Shown: positions 35,227-50,118 of the stretch, one piece after another
Position numbering within the stretch: the stretch's first letter is position 1
Layout of the letters: the number at the start of each line of letters is the position of its first letter
Assembly: GCA_021604505.1 (NCBI GenBank)
Contig: BQJC01000002.1
Location: forward strand, 434,001-498,000
DNA length: 64,000 nucleotides
Origin: Nitrospinaceae bacterium
GTDB taxonomy: Bacteria > Nitrospinota > Nitrospinia > Nitrospinales > VA-1
Reading direction: 5' to 3'
Made by a program: the position numbers and the translations under genes
Notes under the pieces: generated by a model
Told to the model about the DNA's origin: nothing
The model's database searches: none
The model's input: only the letters and a program-made list of their open reading frames with translations

Positions 35227-35574
35227 TTATTGGCTTCGATAGGTATACAAAAAAATTACAGAACTAAAAACTATCAAACTCATGGAAGGCACCATTTTAT
35301 AAAAAGGGTTTTTTACTCTTAAATGGGTTAATACAGCCGCAACCATCAATACCGTTATCCCAGACGCACCTAAAAGGACAACATTTATGTCACTGCTGTA
35401 GAGCATCAAAGCGAAGGATAATTTTAATATCCCGACCAGATCCCTTAGCCAGGCAGGTAATTCATATAGCTTAAATTCCTCAATAATGTTCTGGTATCTT
35501 ACAACCCAAACAAAAAAAATAGAAGCAGCAATTAAAGCTTTAAGAGCATAAATAGCACTCGCTATATAAATCAC
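35227..35574 (-). CDS. DoxX-like small membrane protein
   Basis: The 115-residue product has four hydrophobic segments and the DoxX-like spacing: an F-x-x-x-(E) helix, LPAWLRDLVGILKLSFALML, then VLMVAAVLTHLRVKNP. A GTG start at 35574 follows AAGGAG by 7 nt. Members of this family are integral membrane proteins of unclear role. It is a single-gene unit. Confidence 0.65.
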   Translation of the reverse strand: MIYIASAIYALKALIAASIFFVWVVRYQNIIEEFKLYELPAWLRDLVGILKLSFALMLYSSDINVVLLGASGITVLMVAAVLTHLRVKNPFYKMVPSMSLIVFSSVIFLYTYRSQ

Positions 35575-35671: not shown

Positions 35672-36166
35672 TTAGACCCCTCTATATTCATTTGATGCGG
35701 CACTTTTTTTTTCACAGGGCACACCTGGGTTGAGCCCGCACTCATGCATTTTCAACAACTCCGATTCTAAAATCCTTTTATTTCCTTTGGCTAATCGCCG
35801 TGCCGAATAAAACTGTTTGGTGGCTTTCTCATGTTGCCCCGATTTATGAAAGCTTAAAGCCAGGTTGAAATATAAAATTCCCTGGCCCGGATCCCTTAAT
35901 TGCTGCGCCAAATTCAAAGCCTTTTTAAATTGTTCAATTGCTTTTTCGAAATGGCCCTGTTGATAAAGTTTGATACCCTGTCCATTGATTTGACCGATCT
36001 CAAGGTCAAAGCTCTTAGAGCCTTCCACTTTTGGAAGCTGGATTGGGATTTCATTTTCACCCCAGGCCGGTCCGATAAAAATCATCAACAAGCATCCAAA
36101 AATAAAAGTCACATTAAATAATTTTTTTAAACTTGGTATTTTCCTTATTACGTTATTTGTTTTCAT
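35672..36166 (-). CDS. Secreted TPR protein, 164 aa
   Basis: The product has an N-terminal hydrophobic segment (FNVTFIFGCLLMIFIGPAWG) predicting export, then two to three TPR helices (GQGIKLYQQGHFEKAIEQFKK, LYFNLALSFHKSGQHEKATK) and a Cys-containing tail (CGLNPGVPC). The ATG at 36166 overlaps the TGA of the preceding lipoprotein gene (ATGA), so translation is probably coupled. It may scaffold an envelope complex with that lipoprotein. No partner is known. Confidence 0.75.
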   Translation of the reverse strand: MKTNNVIRKIPSLKKLFNVTFIFGCLLMIFIGPAWGENEIPIQLPKVEGSKSFDLEIGQINGQGIKLYQQGHFEKAIEQFKKALNLAQQLRDPGQGILYFNLALSFHKSGQHEKATKQFYSARRLAKGNKRILESELLKMHECGLNPGVPCEKKSAASNEYRGV

Positions 36167-36426
36167 TGTTTCACCGTCCAATATTTACTTTCCATGCATA
36201 AACGGAGTAATGCTCTCTTTCGATTCAAAAATTCCCCAGCGCCTTCACTGCCCTCACTGCGTTTTTTGCTTTGATTCGTCAAATCTTTACAAGCCTGCAA
36301 GTCTTTAAGAAAGACCTGTTCCCCTTTTTTCTTTAGGTCCATATAGGCCTGGTAGTTTGATTCTGTCTGGCATCCTGAAACCCAAATTATAATGAATATG
36401 TGAAACATTATTTTTGGCAATGACAT
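36163..36426 (-). CDS. Small lipoprotein, 87 aa
   Basis: A short signal with lipobox WVSGC (Cys at about 19) is followed by a Lys/Glu-rich helical mature part with Cys residues (LQACKDLTN, LRLCMES). It is probably a lipid-anchored protein. It overlaps the secreted TPR gene by the 4-nt ATGA junction. No family is recognised. Confidence 0.7.
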   Translation of the reverse strand: MSLPKIMFHIFIIIWVSGCQTESNYQAYMDLKKKGEQVFLKDLQACKDLTNQSKKRSEGSEGAGEFLNRKRALLRLCMESKYWTVKQ

Positions 36427-36560: not shown

Positions 36561-37028
36561 TCAGGCAGGTTCTTCCGATAAGGACCGAATATAATGAATC
36601 AGTTGCCAGATTTTTTTGTCCGACAGATAAGAATAAGCCGGCATGGAAGTTCCTTTAGAACCATTTTTAATGATCCAGAACAACTGTCCATCTGAAACTT
36701 GATCCATAATCGGTTTGCAGGTGAAATTTCTGGGTCTGGGATTCATATTAGGAGCCATGGCCCCCTTGCCATTTCCTGCCATGCCATGACAATGTTTGCA
36801 GGCAAGAGGTTTTGCCTTGATATGAGCAAGAACTTTACCTTTTTTCACAAAGCGCGGTTCTTTTCGCAGCGGGTTTACTTTTTCCAGATAGTCCTTGGGG
36901 GCGGTAACGGTTTTTCTTTTTTGCGGACAAACCCCCGAAGGTTCTTTATTCCCTGCCAAAGAATCACTCGTGAAATTGAGGAGGAGAGCTACTAAAACAA
37001 ATGCAATGAGCATTGAACCTATTTTCAT
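36561..37028 (-). CDS. Mono-haem c-type cytochrome
   Basis: The 155-residue exported cytochrome has a signal peptide (MKIGSMLIAFVLVALLLNFTSDSLAG) and one covalent haem site, CKHCH, at about 77-81. The probable distal Met ligand is in GTSMPAYSYLSDKKIWQLIHYIRSL, the class I cytochrome c ending. The ATG at 37028 opens the signal peptide and follows GGAAGG; an earlier in-frame start at 37061 is less likely. It is the terminal gene of the SUMF1 cluster, 19 nt after the preceding gene, so it is probably an electron carrier used with those proteins. Confidence 0.9.
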   Translation of the reverse strand: MKIGSMLIAFVLVALLLNFTSDSLAGNKEPSGVCPQKRKTVTAPKDYLEKVNPLRKEPRFVKKGKVLAHIKAKPLACKHCHGMAGNGKGAMAPNMNPRPRNFTCKPIMDQVSDGQLFWIIKNGSKGTSMPAYSYLSDKKIWQLIHYIRSLSEEPA

Positions 37029-37047
37029 AACGGCACCTTCCTGATTA

Positions 37048-38121
37048 TCATTTTCCTTCAATAGTATTTAGAAGACTGCGATACTCCCGATTGTCGGGAT
37101 CACCCTCAATCGCTTTTTTAATTTCGGCTCTGGCTTCTTTATATTTTTCCGCCCCTATTTGAATGAGTGCCTGCATATAAAATGCACGGGCCTGTATTTT
37201 GGAATCGCTTTCCACGTCACGCGCACATCGGAAACCCAATCCAACCCCATAGGAGTTATTCATCGGATCATTCCAGAAACGATGAGTCGTGGTGATGCTT
37301 TGTGACGGAGCGAACCAGGACCCTCCCCGGATGACTTTCTTTTTCCCGGATGCCCGTTGGTTTAAATAGGTTCCAGTGACGCCAAGTCCAGCGCCTATTT
37401 GCGGTCCTGCGGGGTTGCGAATGTCTTTCGAAGTTTTATAATAATTCGGGTCATACCAGTCCTGAACCCATTCGAAAACATTTCCGGCCATGTTATAGAC
37501 GCCATAATAACTTTTCCCTTCCGGGTGGGAATCAATGGGTGCCGTAATGTGCTTTTGACCCGTTTTACCTTTGGCAAAATTCGCCTTGCTGTAATCCAGT
37601 ACATTACCCCAGGGGTAGATGGAGCCCGCGGGTCCACGCGCTGCTTTCTCCCATTCCGCCTCCGTCGGCAGTCTTTTGTTAGCCCAGTGGCAATAGGCAT
37701 TGGCGTCGTACCAGTTCACTCCCGTTACCGGTTGGTTGGGTTGGTTTAATTGGCGGTGATCCCAATAGGCTGGGGCGGAATAATCTGTGGCTTGGATGAA
37801 TTCCGTGAACTGGGCATTTGAAACTTCATACTTGTCGATGTAATAGGCGCTTAGATAAATCATTTGTGCCGGACCTTCATCGTCGAAGGCATCTTTTGAT
37901 GCTTCATACCTGGTTTCTTTGGCCGGGGACGGTTGTTTGCTTTCGTCCCCGACAGGAGCTTTGTCGATCCCGCGCATAAAACCACCAGGATGGATCAGAA
38001 CCATGTTTTCTGGTGCAGAGGAATCCGCGGCCGCGGCAATGGGCAGGCAAGTGCCAATGAAGATCGCCGAGAGAATTGAAAAAAGAATTTTGGTTTTATA
38101 TATTGTTGAATGCCACTTCAT
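37048..38121 (-). CDS. Exported SUMF1-fold (FGE-sulfatase domain) protein A
   Basis: The 357-residue product has a signal peptide followed by a SUMF1/FGE-type domain: MVLIHPGGFMRGI, YYIDKYEVSNAQFTEF, PVTGVNWYDANAYCHWANKRLPTEAEWEKAARG, YGVYNMAGNVFEWVQDWYDP and VIRGGSWF ending GLGFRCARD. The two active-site cysteines of true formylglycine-generating enzyme, which lie shortly after GGS, are absent (FAPSQSITTTHR instead), so sulfatase activation is unlikely. The last 50 residues form a TPR-like helical pair. It closely resembles protein C (39444-40490). The start at 38121 follows AGGAGG. Confidence 0.88.
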   Translation of the reverse strand: MKWHSTIYKTKILFSILSAIFIGTCLPIAAAADSSAPENMVLIHPGGFMRGIDKAPVGDESKQPSPAKETRYEASKDAFDDEGPAQMIYLSAYYIDKYEVSNAQFTEFIQATDYSAPAYWDHRQLNQPNQPVTGVNWYDANAYCHWANKRLPTEAEWEKAARGPAGSIYPWGNVLDYSKANFAKGKTGQKHITAPIDSHPEGKSYYGVYNMAGNVFEWVQDWYDPNYYKTSKDIRNPAGPQIGAGLGVTGTYLNQRASGKKKVIRGGSWFAPSQSITTTHRFWNDPMNNSYGVGLGFRCARDVESDSKIQARAFYMQALIQIGAEKYKEARAEIKKAIEGDPDNREYRSLLNTIEGK

Positions 38122-38161
38122 GAGTGCCTCCTGAAGCCTGATTGGTTTAAAAGTATTTAAT

Positions 38162-38968
38162 CTACTTGGCACAACGAAAACCGATGCCATCGGTCTTAAG
38201 CGCGAATCCGCCTTTCCCTCTTGAAGCCGGTCGTACATCCCCTATGAAGCTGTGCCAGGAGCCCCCTTTGATGACTTTCAAAATTCCTGTGTCCGGGCCT
38301 TGCGGATTTTTATTGGAGGCCCTTGTGTAATAATCCGGGGCGTACCAGTCGCGCACCCATTCGCGAACGTTACCCGCCATGTCTTGAACTCCGTATGGAG
38401 AGGATGTTTCGGGAGTTGACCCGACCTGCCAAAGTGTCTGGGTTCCTTTCCAGTTTCGTAAAAAATTTACCGTTTCATTTGATGGAGGCTCAAAGCCCCA
38501 CGGGAAAATCAATCCTTGTTCTCCCCGCGCCGCTTTTTCCCATTCTGCTTCGGTAGGCAGTCGTTTTCCTGCCCAGCGGCAATAATCGACGGCGTCATAC
38601 CATGTCAGCTGAACCACCGGTAAATTGTCGACGCCTGATTCTTCCGAGAGTAATTTGTCCCCATATGGGTTCAGTGGTTCTTTACGGTCGGTGGCATGGA
38701 TGAATTTCAGATAACGTTTGTTGGTCACTTCATGGGCATCGATCGCGTAGGTATCGAGGTATACCTTTCTCTGAGGTCGCTCGTCAGGTCTTCCCTCCTC
38801 CTGTTTGCTGCCCATCAAAAACACCCCTGCCGGAACCGAGATCATTTCAACGGAATCATTCTGTAATGCGCCATTAGATTGGGCATAAACCGGGGCTTGG
38901 AAGTTGAAACCGGCCGAAATCAGGACTAGCAGAATGGTCAACTTTGAAACTCTTGTTGCGGATTTCAT
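38162..38968 (-). CDS. Exported SUMF1-fold protein B
   Basis: The 268-residue product has a signal peptide (cleavage near PVYAQS) and a complete, shorter SUMF1 domain: MISVPAGVFLMGSKQEEGRPDERP, TYAIDAHEVTNKRYLKFI, VVQLTWYDAVDYCRWAGKRLPTEAEWEKA, YGVQDMAGNVREWVRDWYAPD and VIKGGSWHSF ending GIGFRCAK. It lacks the FGE catalytic cysteines and the C-terminal helical tail of proteins A and C. Its ATG overlaps the stop of the 126-residue gene upstream by 4 nt. The binding partner or reaction is unknown. Confidence 0.88.
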   Translation of the reverse strand: MKSATRVSKLTILLVLISAGFNFQAPVYAQSNGALQNDSVEMISVPAGVFLMGSKQEEGRPDERPQRKVYLDTYAIDAHEVTNKRYLKFIHATDRKEPLNPYGDKLLSEESGVDNLPVVQLTWYDAVDYCRWAGKRLPTEAEWEKAARGEQGLIFPWGFEPPSNETVNFLRNWKGTQTLWQVGSTPETSSPYGVQDMAGNVREWVRDWYAPDYYTRASNKNPQGPDTGILKVIKGGSWHSFIGDVRPASRGKGGFALKTDGIGFRCAK

Positions 38969-39345
38969 TTTTTTGGCTCCTGACTTTCGGTGATGACTTT
39001 GCGGGAGATTTGTATGATTTGCTTGACCAGTTTGTCGGTATGTTTCCTATCCCCTCTTTCTTCCGCTTCATAAGCCTGGGCAAGAAGGGTGCGCGATTTA
39101 TGAAGGTTCATTTCTAATTCTGTCTGGATCGCGGGAGAAGCAAGGGTTCCACCCAATGCCCCATGATGATAGATTTCCCAAGCCTGCTCTACGGCCATCC
39201 GGGCCTCAGCTGTCCTGCTGACGGAGTTTTCTTTATTTAAATCTTTGGCGAACCCGGACACCGGAATGCTGAAAAATATAATTACCCAAAGAAGTAAACA
39301 TCCGGTTAAAGCTGATTTATTTGAATAATGAATGGTTTCTTTCAT
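38965..39345 (-). CDS. Secreted helical protein, 126 aa
   Basis: An N-terminal membrane-type signal (LTGCLLLWVIIFFSIPVSGFAKD) precedes a mature domain that is nearly all helix and charged (TAEARMAVEQAWEIYHHGALG, then LHKSRTLLAQAYEAEERGDRKHTDKL). It is probably periplasmic. Its stop codon overlaps the ATG of SUMF1 protein B (ATGA), so the two are translationally coupled. No family is recognised. Confidence 0.7.
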   Translation of the reverse strand: MKETIHYSNKSALTGCLLLWVIIFFSIPVSGFAKDLNKENSVSRTAEARMAVEQAWEIYHHGALGGTLASPAIQTELEMNLHKSRTLLAQAYEAEERGDRKHTDKLVKQIIQISRKVITESQEPKK

Positions 39346-39443: not shown

Positions 39444-40490
39444 TTACCGAATCTGCTTTTGAATCATCTCTTTTACCTTCAGATATTCAGGATTCACGGT
39501 ATCCATGCTCAAGGCCTTAGAGATGGACTTCATCGCCTCGGAATACTTTTCTGCACCCATGTTGATGAGAGCGTCCATGTAATGAGTGCGTGCTTGAAGA
39601 CTGGGATCGTCTTCCACAGAACGCGCACAGCGAAAACCAAGACCAACCCCGTAGCTGTTGTTCATGGGGTCGTTCCAAAACCGATGGGTGTTGGTTACGC
39701 TTTCCGCCGGGGCATACCAGGAACCGCCGCGGATGACTCGTTTTTCACCCGTCGCATAACGGTCCACATAGGTCCCTGTCGCACTCAGGAAAACCCCTTC
39801 CCTGGGGCCCGTCGGATTAACCATCTCCTTGGTGGTTTTGTAATAGTTGGGGTCGTACCAATCCTGTACCCATTCAAAAACGTTTCCTGCCATGTTGTAA
39901 GCTCCATAAGGGCTTTTGCCCTCCGGGAAGGAACCAACATTGGCGGTGTACTCCTGCTTGCGGCCAAAGTTTGCTTTGGATGAGTCCAGGTCGTTTCCCC
40001 ACGGATACTTGTATCCTTCCGGACCGCGTGCCGCCTTTTCCCATTCCGCTTCCGTCGGCAGTCGTTTGTTGGCCCAACCACAATAAGCGGTGGCATCATG
40101 CCAATTGACTCCACTGACCGGTTGTTCGGGTTTGTTGCGACGATGATCGTCCCAATAGGCTGGAGCAGGGTGTCCCGTGGCTTTAATAAATTCTCCGTAC
40201 TGCTTATTGGACACTTCGTACTTGTCTAGGTGGAAAGCATCCAGTAAGACATGGCGTGCGGGGCCTTCGTCATGAAAAGCTTCACGGGAAACACGGTATT
40301 TGAGTTGTTGCTGTCTAGACATTTTTTCTGTTTTCGGTTTCACTTCTTTATCCACACCCATGAGAAATGATCCTCCAGGGACCAAGACCATATCTTCAGG
40401 GGATTCGCCCGCCCAGGTGGCCGAGGCGCCAATCATGGTTGTCACGGCCAATGCCCCTAAGGTTGTTTTAATAAATTGTTTTGTTTTCAT
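39444..40490 (-). CDS. Exported SUMF1-fold protein C
   Basis: The 348-residue product has a signal peptide (ending ASATWAGES) and a SUMF1 domain very like protein A: MVLVPGGSFLMGVDKEV, FHLDKYEVSNKQYGEF, PVSGVNWHDATAYCGWANKRLPTEAEWEKAARG, AYNMAGNVFEWVQDWYDPNYYK and VIRGGSWYAP ending GLGFRCARS. A C-terminal TPR-like tail (YMDALINMGAEKYSEAMKS) follows. The catalytic cysteines of FGE are missing. Proteins A and C share NDPMNNSYGVGLGF and look like a gene duplication. It starts 39 nt downstream of the DUF4399 gene. Confidence 0.88.
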   Translation of the reverse strand: MKTKQFIKTTLGALAVTTMIGASATWAGESPEDMVLVPGGSFLMGVDKEVKPKTEKMSRQQQLKYRVSREAFHDEGPARHVLLDAFHLDKYEVSNKQYGEFIKATGHPAPAYWDDHRRNKPEQPVSGVNWHDATAYCGWANKRLPTEAEWEKAARGPEGYKYPWGNDLDSSKANFGRKQEYTANVGSFPEGKSPYGAYNMAGNVFEWVQDWYDPNYYKTTKEMVNPTGPREGVFLSATGTYVDRYATGEKRVIRGGSWYAPAESVTNTHRFWNDPMNNSYGVGLGFRCARSVEDDPSLQARTHYMDALINMGAEKYSEAMKSISKALSMDTVNPEYLKVKEMIQKQIR

Positions 40491-40976: not shown

Positions 40977-41060
40977 ATTGTTGTCTCCGAAAATATTTGA
41001 TTTTTTGTTGTCAGCATTCTCATGCCCTCACCTCTTCTGTATAATGCTTGTTTAATGTTT

Positions 41061-41133
41061 TGTTCATAGTTTTGCGCATCTGTTTATAGTTTGTCAACTA
41101 TTTTATTTAAAAACATTTTACAAACTATAAACA
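41061..41133. promoter_or_regulatory. Divergent promoter region with three repeated operator-like elements
   Basis: TGTTTATAGTTTGT (41081-41094) and its exact complement ACAAACTATAAACA (41120-41133) form a perfect inverted repeat. A third, variant copy TGTTCATAGTTTTG (41061-41074) lies exactly 20 bp before the second, about two helical turns. A TTGACA hexamer on the minus strand overlaps the middle element. The region lies between the divergent DUF4399/SUMF1 cluster and the MerR-B12 gene, so it is probably the regulator's operator for both directions. Confidence 0.7.
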
Positions 41134-41152
41134 TTTGGTTAGTATTGCATCT

Positions 41153-42064
41153 ATGAAAACGTTCAGAATCAATCAGGTGGCAAGAATCACGGGTCTTTCA
41201 AAGGAAGTTCTTCGGGTGTGGGAAAAACGGTACCGGTTGCTGTCCCCGGAAAGGGGCCCGAACCGCTACCGTCTCTACAATGAGCAAGATATTGATTTGT
41301 TGAAGTTTTTGGTTGAGGAAATTAAACAGGGCCAATCGATTGGCGAACTGGCCTCGTTGGGGAAAGATGAAATTCTGGCTCGTGTGAGGGAGAAGGGGAA
41401 AAAAGAACCGGAATCATTGCCCAGGGATCAAATATTGGTGGAGCTGGAAAAATATTTATTGCCGCTGGACCCATTAGCTTTTGAAAAAAGACTTAATGAC
41501 TTAATGGTCTTATCGCCTTTTGAGGAGGTCTTTAAAAGGATTCTCGTGCCCCTACAAATCCGGGTGGGGGAACTCTGGTTTGAGGACAAGCTGGATATTT
41601 CGATCGAGCACTATGTTACGGCGCAGGTAAAACAAAAACTTTTTACCGCCATTAATATGATTGGTATCGAGCAACATGGGCCGAAAGTTTTGATTGCCTG
41701 TCCACCCTGGGAGCTCCATGAAATAGGAGCTCAAATGATTGCCTATTTTTGCGCAACTCGAAAGGGTCGGGTGATTTTTCTTGGTGCTAATTTACCCTTG
41801 GCAAATTTAATTCATTTTTGCTCCCAGACAAAACCGGATGTTGTCATATTATCCTGCACTTCAGACATCAGCGAAAATAAAGCCAGGGCTTTTTTTACGG
41901 AGTTATCCCATAAAATTTCGACCCACAAATGCCCGGTTTGGGTTGGAGGACAGGGAATAAGGAGCGTGGAGCCGGCTTTCGAAAAAGCAAAAATCAAAAT
42001 CGTAAACGGCTTAGAGGATCTGGAGAAACTACTAGGTGAACTGGCATCCCGGCAATTATTCTAG
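41153..42064 (+). CDS. MerR-family regulator with CarH/LitR-type cobalamin-binding domain
   Basis: The 303-residue product has a MerR winged helix (about 1-70; FRINQVARITGLSKEVLRVWEKRY then NRYRLY), a four-helix B12-binding linker (about 92-170) and a Rossmann B12 domain (about 177-300). Trp142, followed by nine residues and Glu152-His153, matches the W-x9-EH motif that caps adenosylcobalamin in CarH. ELHEIG (187-192) matches E-x-H-x-x-G, with His189 as the expected cobalt ligand. Such proteins repress in the dark with AdoCbl and release DNA in light; others only sense B12. The ATG at 41153 opens the MerR fold; a TTG six codons earlier is less likely. Confidence 0.88.
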   Translation: MKTFRINQVARITGLSKEVLRVWEKRYRLLSPERGPNRYRLYNEQDIDLLKFLVEEIKQGQSIGELASLGKDEILARVREKGKKEPESLPRDQILVELEKYLLPLDPLAFEKRLNDLMVLSPFEEVFKRILVPLQIRVGELWFEDKLDISIEHYVTAQVKQKLFTAINMIGIEQHGPKVLIACPPWELHEIGAQMIAYFCATRKGRVIFLGANLPLANLIHFCSQTKPDVVILSCTSDISENKARAFFTELSHKISTHKCPVWVGGQGIRSVEPAFEKAKIKIVNGLEDLEKLLGELASRQLF

Positions 42065-42127
42065 TATTGATTAAGAACCTGGTGGCTTCGAATTTTCAAA
42101 ATTTATATTGTTGTATAGGATCGTCTA

Positions 42128-43078
42128 ATGGACAAACTTTGGATAGGAATCAGCAGTTGCCTGCTGGGCGAAAAAGTCCGGTGGAACGGTGACCACAAAC
42201 AAAACTTGTATGCCAAGGAGGTATTGGGCAGGTTTTTTGACTATGTCCCGGTATGCCCTGAAGTTGAAGTCGGAATGGGAGTGCCGCGCGAGACGGTCCA
42301 TTTAGCGGGAGACAAGGATTCTCCAAGAATGATTGGAACGAAAACAGGAACCGACTGGACACAAAAAATGATCCGGTTCAGCGCCGGCAAGGTTCGAGAA
42401 CTTTCTTCTTATGGCTTGAGTGGTTTTATTTTCAAGAAAGGGTCCCCCTCCTGCGGCATCGAACGCGTATCGCTATATACTGAATCCGGGAATAAGGCAA
42501 ACTCCATGGGGCAGGGGCTGTTTGCCAGATCATTTATAGAGAAATTCCCTTTGATTCCTGTGGAGGAAGAGGGTCGATTGAACGACTTCAAAATCCGGGA
42601 AAACTTTATCGTCCGTGTGTTCAGTTATCACCGCCTGCAAAAATTATTTAAAGAAGGGTATTCGAGAGGGGCACTGGTAAACTTTCATACCCGACACAAG
42701 TTTTTGCTTTTATCCCATAGTAGAAAGCATTACGACACATTGGGCCGGCTGGTCGCCGAGGCCAAAAAGTTGAGCCCAGGGGAGATAAGATCTCGTTATA
42801 GCGAAATTTTTATGGAAGCGCTGACTTTTCGGTCAACGGCGAAAAAAAATACAGATGCACTGAAGCACATTCTGGGATTTTTAAAAAAGAACCTGACAAA
42901 AGAAGAAAAAAGGGACATCCTCTCGAATATCGAAGACTACCGGAACGAATTAGTCCCTTTGATCGTTCCCATCACTTTGCTTCGACATCATGTAAAAAAG
43001 TACGACATCACTTATCTTCTCGACCAGGTATATCTGAATCCACATCCCAGGGAACTGATGCTCAGGAATCATGTTTAA
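42128..43078 (+). CDS. DUF523-DUF1722 fusion protein (TudS-YbgA type)
   Basis: The 316-residue product has an N-terminal DUF523 domain (about 1-150) with the three cysteines of the TudS 4Fe-4S site: SSCLLG (Cys11), VCPEVEVGMGVPR (Cys43) and GSPSCG (Cys109). DUF1722/YbgA follows (about 180-310; FHTRHKFLLLSHSRKHYDTLGRLVA and LRHHVKKY). TudS proteins desulfurate thiouracil-type compounds. YbgA-like genes are often next to photolyase genes and under light-responsive MerR regulators. It lies 63 nt after the MerR-B12 gene on the same strand, so co-regulation is likely; no photolyase gene is present here. Confidence 0.85.
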   Translation: MDKLWIGISSCLLGEKVRWNGDHKQNLYAKEVLGRFFDYVPVCPEVEVGMGVPRETVHLAGDKDSPRMIGTKTGTDWTQKMIRFSAGKVRELSSYGLSGFIFKKGSPSCGIERVSLYTESGNKANSMGQGLFARSFIEKFPLIPVEEEGRLNDFKIRENFIVRVFSYHRLQKLFKEGYSRGALVNFHTRHKFLLLSHSRKHYDTLGRLVAEAKKLSPGEIRSRYSEIFMEALTFRSTAKKNTDALKHILGFLKKNLTKEEKRDILSNIEDYRNELVPLIVPITLLRHHVKKYDITYLLDQVYLNPHPRELMLRNHV

Positions 43079-43719
43079 AATATTTTAAAGTCCATCCTGG
43101 CTAAACGGTAGCGCAAATCTTCAGGTTGCGATTTCAGCTACGATAAAACCACGTGCTTATCTTTAGTAAAATGAAGTGATTGAGAAAATTTTGTGATTTT
43201 TCTGCGCCTGATTCTTTTAATCAAATTTCCATAATTTTTTAACTCATCCATTCGACGCCAAATAATTAAGACCAGCCACACACTCCTGGCAGGATATTTG
43301 AGGGTTCTCGATTAAAAACTTGCAGGCCTTCAGCCATTATCCGCAACTTCCATTCCCTCGACAAATTTCTCAATATTTCAACATTTCTTAAAGGGGAAGT
43401 TCCGCTAAAAGAGTTTATTTCCCGAACATCGAAAACCCTTGAAAATCCCCCCCTTTTTATCGGAATTGTTACAAAACAACCTGTCGACCGGCATTTATCC
43501 AATTGATTTTTTGGGGTTTATCGCTTATCTTGAAAATATCCCTATATCTGAATATATCCTCTAATTTTGAAAAAATTAGTTTGCGAGCTTTGTCTTGAGG
43601 TTTCAGGGAGGGGAACAAAGGACTTCACGGGAATTCGCTGAAAAGAAAGCTTTTTCAATGAAAAGTTGATTCTTTGGCCAAAGTGTTTTCAATCCAACTT
43701 TTTTAAAAGACAAAAGAAA
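43079..43719. other. Intergenic region
   Basis: About 640 bp before the large kinase. A minus-strand 78-codon frame (43266-43502) has a GTG-type origin and no recognisable features, so it is not called. The final 150 bp are A/T-rich and may hold the kinase promoter. No tRNA, repeat or strong hairpin was found. Confidence 0.45.
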
Positions 43720-46700
43720 ATGGCGTTTTCTAAATTTAAAATAACAGTATTTATTGTTGTCCTTATTCTTTCTGCAGTGGTTTTCAAGTTGACCTATGGG
43801 TATCAAAAAAACCTCTGGGAAAAAGAATTTATCAATCAAGCCGAAAAAACGACTCTGACTTTAAAAAATAAAATAGAGGTCAATGAAAGAATCCTTTTGA
43901 ATATCGTTTCATTTTATGGGGCCTCCGAAGAAGTCAACCGCGAAGAATTTAATGCATTTGTTTCCCCTATTTTTGAAAAAAATAAGTTCATTCAAGCCCT
44001 GGAATGGATACCCCGTGTTTTTGACAACCAACGAATAAAATTTGAAAACCAGGTAAAAAAAGAAGGCTTCCCGAACTTTCAAATAACCGAACGTTTTAAG
44101 GAAGGATCCATAACACGGGCAGACTCTCGCCCTGAATACTACCCGGTAAATTTTGTAGAACCTTTTATGGGTAATGAAGCGGTTCTGGGTTTTGATTTGG
44201 CAAGCAACCCGAAACGTCTGGAAACGCTCATTGCTTCGAGAGACTCAGGTAAGATTTTAGCCACGAAAAAAGTCCGGTTGGTTCAGGAAGAAAAAGAACA
44301 GTCAGGGGTTTTGATTTTTGCTCCCTTCTATGGAAGCCCCAAGATACCAAAAACCACCGAGGAAAGAAGGGAAAAAATATCAGGGTTTGTTTTAGGTGTG
44401 TACCGCCTTGGAGATATGTTTAATAACATAATCTCTCCCTATCTTGATAAAGGAATGAATCTGCTCGTTTTCGAAGAAAAGGGAATGTCCGGCAAGAATA
44501 TAATTTTCGGGCAACACAACGCAAACAGCTTTTTAGAACTAAAAAAGGAAATAGAATTTTCCGGCCGCAATTGGACGGTCGTTTTACAGGCAGACGCCAG
44601 TTTTGGAAAAGGAATCGATAAAAGTCTACCCATGATAAGCTCCGCGGCGATTATTTTTCTATCGGTATTTGTTTTCATAATTTTAGAATTGAATCGCTCC
44701 CAGACTGAAAAAATTGAGAGTGAAGTTCTCTTACAAGCCCAGGACCTCACAGAAAATAAAGCAAGGTTGAAAGAGGCTGTCGATCCCGCCAATGATGCGA
44801 TGTTCACTTTTGACGAAACAGGCGGTATTAAGTCTTTCAATCCCGCAGCAGAACGCCTCTTTGGATATCAACCATCGGAGGTCCTGAACCGGAACTTCAA
44901 CACGTTGATGCCGGAACCATACAGCAGTGAACACGACCAATACTTGAAAGATCATATTGAGACGGGAGTTTCCAGGTTCCTTGGGGTTGGCCGCGAAGCA
45001 ATGGGTTTACGCAAAGACGGATCGACCTTTCCGCTGGATATAGAGATCAGTGAGAAAAATGTGGGCAAGAAGAAAATGTTTGCCGGTTTCGTCCGCCATA
45101 GTAAAGAACGTAAAAAAGCGGAGAGAGGAAAAAGGTTCAGTTTTTTTCTTGCGGCCGGGAGCGTTGTTTTGGCACTGGCGATTTTTGCCATCGATCTGAG
45201 CCTTCCCCTCGGAATTGCGAGCGGCGTACCCTATGTTGCTGTCGTTCTGTTCGGCGTATGGTCGACTCAAAAAAGATTTATTTTGATAAGTGCCACCCTG
45301 TGTACGGGTTTGGTGATGCTGGGTTTATATTTTTCGCCGCCGGGAGGTGAGCTTTGGCAAGTTCTGGTCAACCGTTGTCTCGCCGTATTTGCCATTTGGA
45401 TCACCGCTGTTCTTTGTATTATAGAAAAAAATCTTAACGCAAAATTAGTCGAAGCAAAAAGTTACCTGGAAGCACGGACCAACTCCGTATTGGACAACAT
45501 CCCCGATGGAATCATCACCATTGGCGAAACAGGCAGTATTAATACTTTCAACCCCGCCGCAGAACGCCTCTTTGGATACCGGTCATCAGAGGTTCTGGGC
45601 CGGAATGTCAACATGTTGATGCCGGACCCTTACAGCAGTGAACACGACCAATACTTGAAAAATTATATCGAAACAGGCAAATCCAAGGTTATCGGTATTG
45701 GCCGCGAGGTAGTGGGTCTACGCAAAGACGGATCGACCTTTCCGGTGGATTTAGGGATCAGCGAGATGTATATGGGCGAGAAAAGAATGTTCACCGGTAT
45801 CGTCCGAAATATTACAGAGCGTAAAAAGGCGGAGGAATTGTCCCTCAGGTTTGGCCGGATTCTCGATAATTCTTTCAACGAGATTTTCATCTTCGATGCG
45901 GACACGTTGAGATTTGTGCAGGTGAATCAAGGGGCTCTGCAAAACATCGGCTACAGCATGGAAGAATTAAGTCAGTTGACCTTTGTGGATATCAGTCCGA
46001 GTTTTTATGAAAGTGACTTCGCTGAGTTTGTATTTCCTCTGGTCACCAGGAAAGAGTCGGTTACGGTTTTTGAAACGGCGTACCAAAGGAAGGACGGGAG
46101 CCTGTATGACGTGGAGATTCGGCTGCAACTCATGCACGACGAAAATCCTCCGGTGTATGTGGCCATCATCGAAGATGTGACTCAACGTAAAGAACAAACG
46201 TTGAAAGTGGAGCAGTTGACTCATCGCAATAAATTGATATTAGAGTCTGCGGGGGAGGGTATTTTTGGCCTGGATCTGGATGGAAAAACGACTTTTGCCA
46301 ACCCCGCCGCTGAAATCATGCTGGGGTACTCTGAGGAAGAACTCCTGGGTCAACTTCAACACGCTCTGATACATCATACCAGAACGGACGGTTCTCCCTA
46401 TCCGCGTGATGACTGCCATATTTATGCCGCTTTTAAGGACGGCAGGGTGCATTGCGAATCAGAAGAAGTATTCTGGCGAAAAGATGGCACTCCGTTACCC
46501 GTGGAGTATGTAGCCACCCCCATTAAAGAACATGGAAAAATTACCGGCGCTGTTGTGACCTTTCGAGACGTCACGGAAAAAAAGCAGGAGGAACAAAACA
46601 ATATCTTACGGTATGAATTGACCAAAATTTTAGCCGAGGCACAAACTCTCGATGAAGGGGTTGTTAAAATTCTGCAAACGTTTGTGGAACATCCAGCATG

Positions 46701-48564
46701 GGATATGGCGTTTTACTGGTATACGGACTCAGATTCCAATGTATTGTCCAGCGAAAATGGAGCTTATTCAAACAAATTAGGTTTAGAAGCTTATAAGGTT
46801 TTTTCAGATCAAACTTTTATTCAAAAAATTGAAAAAGGGACAGGGCTGCCGGGACGGGTTTGGGAAAGTAAAAAACCGGCCTGGATCAATGATGTGGTAG
46901 ACGACCCTAATTTCCCCAGATCTCCCTGGGCGGCAAAAATTGGAATTCATACGGGGTTTGGATTTCCAGTTTTCTCGGGAGAAAGATTCTGGGGAGTGTT
47001 TGAGGTTTTTACAATAGATAAATTAAACCTTGACCAGGATTTGATCGACCATTTCAACAACATGGGCAGTCAAATAGGGCAATACATGCAACGTGTAGAG
47101 AGCGAATTTGAATTGGCGGAAACTATGCTAATGGCGGAAGAAGCGAAGCACCAGGCGGAATCGGCTAACCGCGCAAAAAGCTCCTTCCTCGCCAATATGA
47201 GTCACGAGATCCGCACGCCCATGAACGCGATTCTGGGGTACGCCCAGATCATGCTGCGCGATGACTCTCTTCCGGAAAATAAGAAGGAATCGGTCGCGAC
47301 GATCGAGAGAAGCGGCCACCATCTGCTGACCTTGATCAACGATATTCTCGATATTTCCAAGATTGAAGCGGGGCACATTGAACTGAATCCCGTCGACTTT
47401 AACCTGAACGATCTGGTTCAGGGACTCGGAGTCATGTTCAGTACCCGGTGTGAAGAAAAACATTTGGGGTTTTGGGTGGAAGGACTGAATACGCACTCCT
47501 TCAATGTAAACGGCGACGAGGGAAAACTGCGGCAAATATTGATCAACCTTTTAGGAAATGCGGTGAAATTCACGGACAAGGGTGAGATCACAGTGAATAT
47601 CACATGCGATGAAGAGGATCGTTATAAATTTTCGGTGACCGATACCGGGAAAGGGATCTCTCCGGAAGGTCAAGTTAAAATTTTCGAGCCTTTCCAGCAG
47701 GCGGAAGAGGGTGTGGAAAAAGGCGGAACCGGACTGGGCCTGGCGATTGCCACGAAGCAGGTAGAACTGATGGGCGGGAAACTGGAACTTGAGTCCGAGG
47801 AGGGTCAGGGTTCGTGCTTTTTCTTTACGTTGCATCTGCCCAGGTCCGAGGCTGAGGTTCTACCATTATCCGAATGTCAAAGCGACAAGGTCATCGGCCT
47901 GGCGCCGGGTTTCAGTGTCAAGGCTCTGGTGGTGGACGACAAGGACATCAACCGGGATGTATTGTCCAAGCTCCTCAAGGATATCGGTGTTGAAGTGATG
48001 GAGGCGGAAAACGGAAAAGTTGCTCTGGATAAAATAGCATTGTTCGATCCCGACATCATCTTCATGGACATGCGCATGCCGGTGATGGGCGGAAAAGAGG
48101 CGATACAGGAGATCGTCAAGCGGTATGGAAAGGATCGGTTCAAGGTGGTGAGCATCACCGCATCGGCTTTTGCACATCAACGGAAGGAATATTTCAAAAT
48201 CGGATGTCATGAATTCATCGCCAAGCCCTTTAGAGCCGGGCAGATTTTCGAGTGTATGGCGAAACTGCTGGGCGTGGAGTTTGAATATAAAATTTCGAAC
48301 AAAGACCAGGAAATAACCAAAGAAAACGTTTTTTCTCACTCAGTGGATTTTTCAAAATTCAGTATTCCCGAAAAGTTATTCATGAGTTTTAAGGATGCGG
48401 TTGAAGAAGGCAACATCACTCAACTGGAGAAGCAACTGGCCCGTTTGCATCAATTGGGTGAGGAAGGCGAACTTCTTGGCAGTCATTTATCTAAATTTGT
48501 GGATTCGTATAATTTCGACGAAGTGTTGAGTATTTTAGAAAAAGTAGAAACCTGTGAAGATTGA
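43720..48564 (+). CDS. Hybrid sensor kinase: CHASE, multiple PAS, integral membrane module, GAF, HisKA, HATPase_c, REC
   Basis: The 1614-residue protein has a first helix (about 8-26), a CHASE-type periplasmic domain (about 60-275), a second helix (about 303-325) and PAS1 (about 354-466). An unusual internal block of about four helices follows (470-567), then PAS2 (590-704), PAS3 (707-823), PAS4 (836-952) and GAF (960-1120). The kinase core has His1162 in MSHEIRTPM and an ATPase domain to about 1375. A receiver has Asp1450 in FMDMRMP, and a helical tail lacks an Hpt motif. PAS1 and PAS2 are near duplicates. The ATG at 43720 opens the first helix; an in-frame TTG at 43666 is less likely. Confidence 0.9.
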   Translation: MAFSKFKITVFIVVLILSAVVFKLTYGYQKNLWEKEFINQAEKTTLTLKNKIEVNERILLNIVSFYGASEEVNREEFNAFVSPIFEKNKFIQALEWIPRVFDNQRIKFENQVKKEGFPNFQITERFKEGSITRADSRPEYYPVNFVEPFMGNEAVLGFDLASNPKRLETLIASRDSGKILATKKVRLVQEEKEQSGVLIFAPFYGSPKIPKTTEERREKISGFVLGVYRLGDMFNNIISPYLDKGMNLLVFEEKGMSGKNIIFGQHNANSFLELKKEIEFSGRNWTVVLQADASFGKGIDKSLPMISSAAIIFLSVFVFIILELNRSQTEKIESEVLLQAQDLTENKARLKEAVDPANDAMFTFDETGGIKSFNPAAERLFGYQPSEVLNRNFNTLMPEPYSSEHDQYLKDHIETGVSRFLGVGREAMGLRKDGSTFPLDIEISEKNVGKKKMFAGFVRHSKERKKAERGKRFSFFLAAGSVVLALAIFAIDLSLPLGIASGVPYVAVVLFGVWSTQKRFILISATLCTGLVMLGLYFSPPGGELWQVLVNRCLAVFAIWITAVLCIIEKNLNAKLVEAKSYLEARTNSVLDNIPDGIITIGETGSINTFNPAAERLFGYRSSEVLGRNVNMLMPDPYSSEHDQYLKNYIETGKSKVIGIGREVVGLRKDGSTFPVDLGISEMYMGEKRMFTGIVRNITERKKAEELSLRFGRILDNSFNEIFIFDADTLRFVQVNQGALQNIGYSMEELSQLTFVDISPSFYESDFAEFVFPLVTRKESVTVFETAYQRKDGSLYDVEIRLQLMHDENPPVYVAIIEDVTQRKEQTLKVEQLTHRNKLILESAGEGIFGLDLDGKTTFANPAAEIMLGYSEEELLGQLQHALIHHTRTDGSPYPRDDCHIYAAFKDGRVHCESEEVFWRKDGTPLPVEYVATPIKEHGKITGAVVTFRDVTEKKQEEQNNILRYELTKILAEAQTLDEGVVKILQTFVEHPAWDMAFYWYTDSDSNVLSSENGAYSNKLGLEAYKVFSDQTFIQKIEKGTGLPGRVWESKKPAWINDVVDDPNFPRSPWAAKIGIHTGFGFPVFSGERFWGVFEVFTIDKLNLDQDLIDHFNNMGSQIGQYMQRVESEFELAETMLMAEEAKHQAESANRAKSSFLANMSHEIRTPMNAILGYAQIMLRDDSLPENKKESVATIERSGHHLLTLINDILDISKIEAGHIELNPVDFNLNDLVQGLGVMFSTRCEEKHLGFWVEGLNTHSFNVNGDEGKLRQILINLLGNAVKFTDKGEITVNITCDEEDRYKFSVTDTGKGISPEGQVKIFEPFQQAEEGVEKGGTGLGLAIATKQVELMGGKLELESEEGQGSCFFFTLHLPRSEAEVLPLSECQSDKVIGLAPGFSVKALVVDDKDINRDVLSKLLKDIGVEVMEAENGKVALDKIALFDPDIIFMDMRMPVMGGKEAIQEIVKRYGKDRFKVVSITASAFAHQRKEYFKIGCHEFIAKPFRAGQIFECMAKLLGVEFEYKISNKDQEITKENVFSHSVDFSKFSIPEKLFMSFKDAVEEGNITQLEKQLARLHQLGEEGELLGSHLSKFVDSYNFDEVLSILEKVETCED

Positions 48565-48565
48565 G

Positions 48566-49726
48566 ATGAACCAAGATACTGAGGCCAGAAACAGTGTGTT
48601 AGGGAACAAGGTCCTCATCGTGGATGACACTCCCGCTAATATCGATGTATTGCGTAAAACGTTGGAGCCGGAAGGTTATGAACTTTCAGTGGCGACAAGT
48701 GGAGAGTCGGCGCTTAAAATTGCTTCTCATTTTAAACCGGATCTCATTTTGCTCGATATCATGATGCCTGGAATAGACGGTTACGAAACCTGCCGGAGGC
48801 TTAAGAGAGATGCAGGCAATAAGGACATAGTGGTTATTTTCATATCCGCAAAAAATGAGACCAAAGATGTGGTTAAGGGGTTTTCCATGGGTGCGGTGGA
48901 TTATATCAACAAACCCTTTCACCACGAAGAGGTATGCGCCCGGGTTCGGACGCACATCAATTTGCGGTCCTTGACCGAGTTGCGGGAAAAATTATTTTCG
49001 AAATTAGAAAATAATGTAAACCGGCTCACCGAGTTGGGCGAGCTTAAAAATAAGTTTCTGGGCATGGCGGCGCATGATCTGCGCAATCCATTAGTTTCTA
49101 TTCGCGGCCTTTCAGACCTGCTGCTTGATAAAAATAATCAATTCTCCGATGAACAGGTAAGGGAATTTATCACAACCATGCATGATGCCAGCCAGCACAT
49201 GCTCTGCCTGGTGAATGATCTCCTGGACACATCGGTCATTGAAAGCGGGAAATTGTCGCTGAGTCTTAAAAAATGCTCGCTTCATGGATTAATCGAAAAG
49301 GTGGTCCGGGCCAACAGGCGGCTGGCGGAAAAAAAGCAAATGGAAATCCAGCTGTCGCTGGCGGATCTTCCAGATCTGTATTTAGACCCAAACCGAATCA
49401 CCCAAGTCCTGGAAAATTTGATCAGCAATGCGGTCAAATTTTCCTCTCCGGGGTCCAACATATTTGTCTCGATTGAAAGCGCGAACGAAGATGTGAAAGT
49501 GAGCGTTCGGGATGAAGGACCGGGAATTTCTGAGGAGGATCAAAAGAAACTTTTTAAAGGATTTCAAAAGTTAAGTGCCCGTCCAACAGGCGGCGAATCG
49601 AGTACCGGTTTGGGGCTGGCCATCGTAAAAAAAATGGTCGAAGCGCACGGGGGAACGCTTGATGTTGAAAGCCGGCTGGGAGTTGGGTCCACCTTTTCTT
49701 TCACAATTTCGAAAAACTTGATATGA
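48566..49726 (+). CDS. Receiver-histidine kinase (REC-HisKA-HATPase_c)
   Basis: The 386-residue soluble protein has an N-terminal receiver (about 14-130) with VDDTPAN and phospho-acceptor Asp64 in LILLDIMMPG. A coiled-coil linker follows, then HisKA with His170 in MAAHDLRNPL and HATPase_c with NLISNAVKFSSPG, DEGPGIS and GLGLAIVKKM. The ATG is 1 nt after the large hybrid kinase's stop; an in-frame GTG at 48554 would overlap it. This layout suggests phosphate passes from the upstream kinase to this receiver. Its own kinase probably feeds the small receivers downstream. Confidence 0.9.
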   Translation: MNQDTEARNSVLGNKVLIVDDTPANIDVLRKTLEPEGYELSVATSGESALKIASHFKPDLILLDIMMPGIDGYETCRRLKRDAGNKDIVVIFISAKNETKDVVKGFSMGAVDYINKPFHHEEVCARVRTHINLRSLTELREKLFSKLENNVNRLTELGELKNKFLGMAAHDLRNPLVSIRGLSDLLLDKNNQFSDEQVREFITTMHDASQHMLCLVNDLLDTSVIESGKLSLSLKKCSLHGLIEKVVRANRRLAEKKQMEIQLSLADLPDLYLDPNRITQVLENLISNAVKFSSPGSNIFVSIESANEDVKVSVRDEGPGISEEDQKKLFKGFQKLSARPTGGESSTGLGLAIVKKMVEAHGGTLDVESRLGVGSTFSFTISKNLI

Positions 49727-50118
49727 ACGCTGAAAGCAAAAAACATAAATTGTTGCTGGTGGATGATGAGGCCCATATCAGGACCTTGATAAAAACGCTT
49801 GCCCAATCTTTGGACTTTGAGGTGATTGCGGAGGCGGAAAATGGGCAGGAAGCCGTAGAACGGTTCCAGTCCGAATCTCCTGATATGACGATCCTCGATA
49901 TAAATATGCCGGTTAAAACAGGAATTGAAGCCTTAAGAGAAATAAAAAAGATCGATCCCGGTGCGCTGGTGATCATGATGACGTCTCGTAATGATCTGGA
50001 AACCGTAACAACAGCCATCAAACTTGGCGCCCGCGGCTACATCCTTAAAGACAACCCGAATGATAAAATAAAATCCAGGATTGAAAAAGCCTGGCAGGAA
50101 TTTGGTGTGAGTGAATGA
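49723..50118 (+). CDS. CheY-like response regulator
   Basis: A 131-residue lone receiver domain with LVDDEAHIRTLIKTL, phospho-acceptor Asp59 in TILDINMPVKTG, MMTSR and the conserved Lys in ILKDNP. The ATG overlaps the kinase stop (ATGA), so translation is coupled and the pair is functional. It has no output domain. It is a close paralogue of the next gene. Confidence 0.9.
   Translation: MNAESKKHKLLLVDDEAHIRTLIKTLAQSLDFEVIAEAENGQEAVERFQSESPDMTILDINMPVKTGIEALREIKKIDPGALVIMMTSRNDLETVTTAIKLGARGYILKDNPNDKIKSRIEKAWQEFGVSE

Follow-up and report, generated by a model that had tools for sequence, protein, structure and literature searches.

A CarH-type regulator divergent from an exported SUMF1-cytochrome c cassette in Nitrospinota is a likely light-relieved repressor

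A 64-kb stretch of the genome of a Nitrospinaceae bacterium (hereafter the window) encodes a CarH/LitR-type MerR regulator divergently arranged with a cassette of genes for exported SUMF1-like proteins and a cytochrome c (Table 1). The best reading of this locus, which we consider likely, is that in Nitrospinota the regulator, dependent on adenosylcobalamin (AdoCbl) and probably relieved by light, represses a photoprotection cassette at a single locus. In the dark, the AdoCbl-bound protein is predicted to assemble on 11-bp TnnACA repeats overlapping two divergent promoters. Two units would thereby be repressed: its own operon, composed of the carH-like gene and rudS, and the nine genes of the exported SUMF1-cytochrome c cassette. 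Breakage of the Co-C bond by light would relieve the repression; RudS would then remove 4-thiouridine, which is photosensitive, from tRNA, and the cassette would give photoprotection to the envelope, probably to periplasmic cytochrome or redox components. The predicted steps, namely AdoCbl binding, dark repression, light relief and RudS activity, build on what could be read directly in the genomes: the protein family and its motifs, the operator repeats and their uniqueness, the conserved arrangement, and the light/UV genes of relatives.

Table 1. Features of the regulator locus and the divergent cassette (positions in the 64-kb window)
Feature	Position	Strand	Basis
CarH/LitR-type MerR regulator with B12-binding domains, 303 aa	41153..42064	+	Pfam, PDB sequence match, motifs, AlphaFold/Foldseek, tree
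RudS: TudS desulfidase + DUF1722 fusion, predicted tRNA 4-thiouridine desulfidase	42128..43078	+	Pfam, TudS structure match, PMC11417400
CarH-type direct-repeat pair TTTACA-n5-TAAACA	41117..41133	+	Repeat scan
CarH-type direct-repeat pair TTGACA-n5-TAAACA, toward the SUMF1 cassette	41081..41097	-	Repeat scan
Further repeats TGAACA (41066-41061), TAAACA (41054-41049), TATACA (41043-41038)	41038..41066	-	Repeat scan
DUF4399 exported protein, cassette gene 1 in the window genome	40530..40976	-	Pfam
SUMF1a, exported, FGE-sulfatase fold, without FGE active-site cysteine pair	39444..40490	-	Pfam, structure match, motif read
Conserved exported 126-aa helical protein, overlaps SUMF1b start	38965..39345	-	ORF, model
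SUMF1b, FGE-sulfatase fold, without active-site cysteine pair	38162..38968	-	Pfam, motif read
SUMF1c, FGE-sulfatase fold, without active-site cysteine pair	37048..38238	-	Pfam, motif read
Exported single-haem cytochrome c (CKHCH)	36561..37061	-	Pfam, motif read
87-aa lipoprotein-like protein, conserved in cassettes	36163..36426	-	Cassette comparison
Exported TPR protein, conserved in cassettes	35672..36181	-	Pfam, cassette comparison
DoxX-like membrane protein, last cassette gene in the window	35227..35574	-	Pfam

The genes lie at the positions given in the preliminary description. The regulator starts with the ATG at 41153, and Pfam recognized MerR_1, B12-binding_2 (four-helix) and B12-binding (Rossmann) domains in it, each with a score above cut-off. 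CarH and class I LitR proteins are defined by the cobalamin motif D/ExHx2G-x41-SxT-x22-27-GG. The sequence of the regulator carries the complete motif (E187-x-H189-x2-G192-x41-S234-C-T236...GG265), in which the last spacing is 28 versus the defining 22-27. The adenosyl-contact motif Wx9EH was likewise read directly as W142-x9-E152-H153, and Trp142, Glu152 and His153 are invariant across eight aligned orthologues. The AdoCbl signature of CarH that a preliminary description had recognized in this protein (Trp142-x9-Glu152-His153 and Glu187-x-His189-x-x-Gly192) was thus found in full, with CarH as the best match. The nearest solved structure by PDB sequence match was Thermus CarH/LitR (E about 1e-24), and every top Foldseek match of the AlphaFold model (pLDDT 78) was full-length CarH (TtCarH; E about 1e-17). 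The score of 120 bits against the NCBIfam equivalog TransRegCarH is far under the 400-bit cut-off; this is a narrow equivalog model, and the low score argues against the same protein but not against the family. In the tree, the paralogues encoded on contigs C1 and C3 of the window genome form a branch separate from the regulator. The motifs, fold, tree and operator support the assignment of the regulator to the CarH (class I LitR) type, and judging from its sequence the protein very likely binds AdoCbl. The window genome, which is 3.64 Mb and 96% complete, encodes a cobalamin adenosyltransferase, so AdoCbl should be makeable at least from imported B12.

Thermus and Bacillus CarH bind tandem 11-bp repeats, nnnnTnnACAn, and one of the Thermus repeats covers the -35 element (PMC9304148). 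The 176-bp intergenic region between the regulator and the divergent cassette (40977-41152) contains three exact TnnACA-n5-TnnACA pairs, against just one in the rest of the window. TTTACA of the pair proximal to the regulator is the candidate -35 element of its promoter, with the candidate -10 element TAGTAT at 41140-41145. Among the further repeats, which sit in the cassette promoter region, TAAACA and TATACA lie 11 bp apart to form the third exact pair (41054-41038, minus strand). The repeats point both ways, include candidate -35 boxes and cover both divergent promoters. The TnnACA scan of Thermus carH-crtB recovered its three repeats, TGTACA, TTGACA and TATACA, at 11-bp steps. In the intergenic regions of nine relatives, we found eight exact pairs versus 0.21 expected, a number reached by none of 1000 dinucleotide shuffles, and the commonest spacing of TnnACA repeats was 11; as these regions come from related genomes and are not independent, the count reflects conservation as well as enrichment. 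Five of the nine regions (G001, G042, G039, G037 and G006) gave no exact pair and keep single TTGACA-centred sites. The putative TnnACA operator as the DNA target and the predicted autoregulation are well supported by these repeats.

We next consider the extent of the regulon. A pattern search of the 3.64-Mb genome for the two 17-mers of the window (41117-41133 and 41081-41097) gave no other match with fewer than three mismatches, and 3-mismatch matches were no commoner than in the control, i.e. at background level. Because of this uniqueness, the protein looks like a one-locus regulator. No strong operator site was found before the unlinked photolyase genes of six relatives (G037, G048, G038, G031, G035 and G029), and hence we claim no wider regulon. 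The candidate -10 element lies 7 bp before the regulator ATG, and the orthologues and Thermus carH look similar; this spacing suggests that the regulator transcript may be leaderless or nearly so, and that this property may be conserved among the orthologues and Thermus carH. In G001, the regulator gene (L034 3177-4143) lacks its first 19 codons, the promoter and one operator arm, owing to a deletion or an assembly error; the cassette left with one operator arm possibly reflects a recent loss of control.

The regulator was found in 9 of the 77 genomes of the phylum that were searched, distributed in three families. SUMF1a (E <= 1e-80) was detected in 11 of 60 genomes searched, including all nine with the regulator, and in the two others contigs end near SUMF1a. 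This co-occurrence of regulator and cassette has P = 4e-9 with relatedness and linkage ignored. In all nine genomes, the regulator and SUMF1a (or DUF4399-SUMF1a) are arranged divergently and the genes beyond vary; G025 has one small 86-aa ORF between the regulator and the cassette. The preliminary description had raised control of the SUMF1 cluster by the regulator and a search for the same divergent pair in related genomes. The pair is present in every regulator-bearing genome, and with CarH-type repeats over both promoters the regulator very probably controls the SUMF1-cytochrome cassette. If it instead controlled only itself and rudS, the cassette would be expressed independently, e.g. as a constitutive redox-assembly operon, and the pair would be a co-inherited island, which the patchy presence in 9 of 77 genomes would fit. 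This is very improbable given that two repeat pairs out of three are oriented towards the cassette, that the regulator-SUMF1 junction stays in G006 and G046 where RudS has left the locus, and that a second, unlinked SUMF1a-126aa-SUMF1b locus of G048, which has no regulator beside it, keeps a TAAACA-n5-TAGACA pair upstream.

The gene downstream of the regulator, which is probably co-transcribed with it, encodes 2-thiour_desulf and DUF1722 domains (Pfam), and its product matches the TudS structure, including the SPSCG and CPE motifs. What had been described as a TudS-YbgA-like fusion of LitR regulons can accordingly be identified as RudS, which is known from photolyase/LitR light-responsive operons (PMC11417400). 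RudS is encoded beside the regulator in seven of the nine genomes, and G006 and G046 have its gene at another genomic site. G029 and G035 have RudS-photolyase gene pairs, likewise at other sites. Directly downstream of rudS (window 43666-50118) lies a gene for a large hybrid sensor kinase with multiple PAS domains, which is followed by a second kinase/response-regulator gene and by one for a response regulator. This block was not seen beside the regulator in relatives.

Photolyase (PF00875) is absent from the window, as noted in the preliminary description, and from the whole 96%-complete genome, which also has no BLUF gene. The cassette of the window is therefore a core without repair genes, and the light link in this genome rests on RudS and homology. 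The earlier view that the cluster is not a usual light target is true of the window genome only, for the operon of relatives has photolyase, dimer glycosylase, BLUF and CbiX. The G046 cassette runs on through CbiX, BLUF-PsiE, lipoprotein, TPR, Sel1, pyrimidine-dimer glycosylase (Pyr_excise), DoxX and photolyase genes; in G039, the DoxX gene is directly followed by photolyase; and the G048 cassette carries BLUF-PsiE and the dimer glycosylase with DoxX and a photolyase remnant further along. Photolyase is commoner in the genomes with the cassette (6/11 versus 4/49, P = 0.0014, relatedness ignored).

The combination of a LitR-type regulator with RudS, and with photolyase in the cassettes of some relatives, resembles the class II LitR-phrB-RudS operons of Pseudomonas. 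Class II LitR has no Rossmann B12 domain and has LOV proteins as its partners (PMC9758184), which sets a precedent for light being sensed by a separate flavin protein that antagonizes the regulator, as short LOV does with class II LitR. In relatives such a partner would be BLUF-PsiE, which is encoded inside the G046 and G048 cassettes. However, the B12-binding domain of the window regulator is complete, unlike that of class II LitR (PMC9758184), the association between BLUF and the cassette across genomes is weak (P = 0.09), and the window genome has no BLUF gene, making this explanation very improbable. By the same absence, BLUF is ruled out as the general light sensor for the window genome.

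The regulator differs from Thermus CarH at one position of the light switch. The residue following Trp142 is Phe143, the counterpart of His132 in Thermus CarH; Phe occupies this position in the window protein and its five nearest orthologues, and His in the orthologues of G006, G037 and G039. Ligation of His132 to cobalt, giving the bis-His state in light, was reported to be critical for the light-driven disassembly of the Thermus CarH tetramer, and in this 2023 study the H132A protein kept AdoCbl binding and the dark tetramer and was mostly tetrameric after light (PMC10442372); an earlier report, as cited therein, found that H132A did disassemble. His132 is present in many, not all, CarH proteins (PMC9304148), is missing from many members of the family, and is semi-conserved rather than strictly defining for CarH/class I LitR. 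With Phe143 in place of His132, AdoCbl binding is likely while the efficiency of the light switch is less certain.

The regulator could then be a sensor of B12 status, in which an ample supply of coenzyme B12 leads the AdoCbl-loaded protein to repress the cassette, and the photolysed state dismantles the repressor inefficiently because of Phe143. The cassette would answer cobalamin supply, or light slowly via loss of the cofactor. The substitution in the window clade, the mostly tetrameric state of Thermus H132A in light (PMC10442372), and the occurrence of a CbiX-type gene within one cassette and next to a paralogue are in line with this. Against it, His132 is retained by orthologues that have the same cassette and a similar operator, other members of the family are also without this residue (PMC9304148), and the presence of RudS, photolyase, dimer glycosylase and BLUF argues for a light signal. 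We regard sensing of B12 status as unlikely, and a true light response of the regulator as probable on the sequence evidence. The natural His132-to-Phe clade offers a setting in which the debated contribution of the bis-His state could be examined.

The locus is similar to that of Thermus thermophilus CarH/LitR in domain order, Wx9EH, ExHxxG, fold, divergent layout and 11-bp TnnACA repeats including the -35 element. The Thermus protein is an AdoCbl photoreceptor-repressor divergent from crtB-phr and has carotenoid genes as its target, whereas the probable target in the window is the exported SUMF1-cytochrome cassette. The two regulators share about 25-31% identity and differ in having His132 or Phe, and the repeat blocks face both ways in the window but one way in Thermus carH. 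What the window encodes is a CarH system whose output is new and whose switch residue is altered.

FGE (SUMF1) has an active-site cysteine pair following RGGS[YW]. All three cassette SUMF1 proteins have the FGE-sulfatase fold of the SUMF1/FGE, EgtB, GldK and PvdO superfamily, although none of them reached the cut-off of any curated subfamily of this superfamily. Unlike FGE, the three paralogues are without the active-site cysteine pair after RGGSW at every locus examined, where their sole remaining cysteine is that of a distant GFRC. On account of these missing cysteines, the SUMF1 proteins are unlikely to act in sulfatase activation, and this function was rejected. The 126-aa protein is strongly conserved and has three long helices in its model; a plasmid search gave no match to it. 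The DUF4399 gene is also found in G001, and lies farther downstream in G048. Cassettes carry one or two single-haem cytochromes c (CxxCH), and the pairing of SUMF1 with cytochromes c and the DoxX-like protein suggests, speculatively, a role in envelope redox or cytochrome protection. We lean towards a photoprotective function of the cassette. It is possible, and we propose it only tentatively, that an undescribed envelope module for photoprotection, made up of three catalytically altered SUMF1 proteins and cytochromes c, is turned on by a B12 photoreceptor dedicated to this single locus, a CarH whose light switch works without the bis-His cobalt ligand.

Nitrospinaceae are a lineage of nitrite oxidisers. 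In a check for nitrite oxidoreductase with TIGR03479, matches of about 1160 aa below the cut-off were obtained in G001, G006, G037 and G046, and only contig-end fragments or weak matches in G000. A search of a literature library found no paper naming both Nitrospin* and CarH. If true, the patchy light-regulated cassette would be a testable genetic marker of light exposure or tolerance in Nitrospinota, and the photoreceptor with its envelope module would be a genetic basis for the variation in light tolerance among nitrite oxidisers. An envelope SUMF1-cytochrome module would also be added to the known outputs of CarH regulators.

In G031 (L048 3255-7909), photolyase is embedded in a group of cytochrome c genes, at least four in number and related to that of the cassette, and no SUMF1 gene is nearby; this is an independent photolyase-cytochrome association. 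A second MerR-B12 family is widespread in the phylum, with Wx9EH, mostly D/ExHxxG and usually Glu after Trp (L043 6991-11151, L042 6866-11286, L047 6126-10728, L059, L061 and L062). Its genes are often located beside those for a small exported protein (HSxH near the start), an epimerase-like protein and a CbiX-like protein, and G038 has a co-oriented photolyase gene three genes away. On contig C1 of G048 (about 144-172 kb; L057 and L059), the cassette has as neighbours a photolyase remnant, a second MerR-B12 gene and genes resembling those for FAD oxidoreductase, DUF1365 and cyclopropane-fatty-acid synthase, types that also occur in the Azoarcus LitR cluster (L090); this region is apparently a light-response island.
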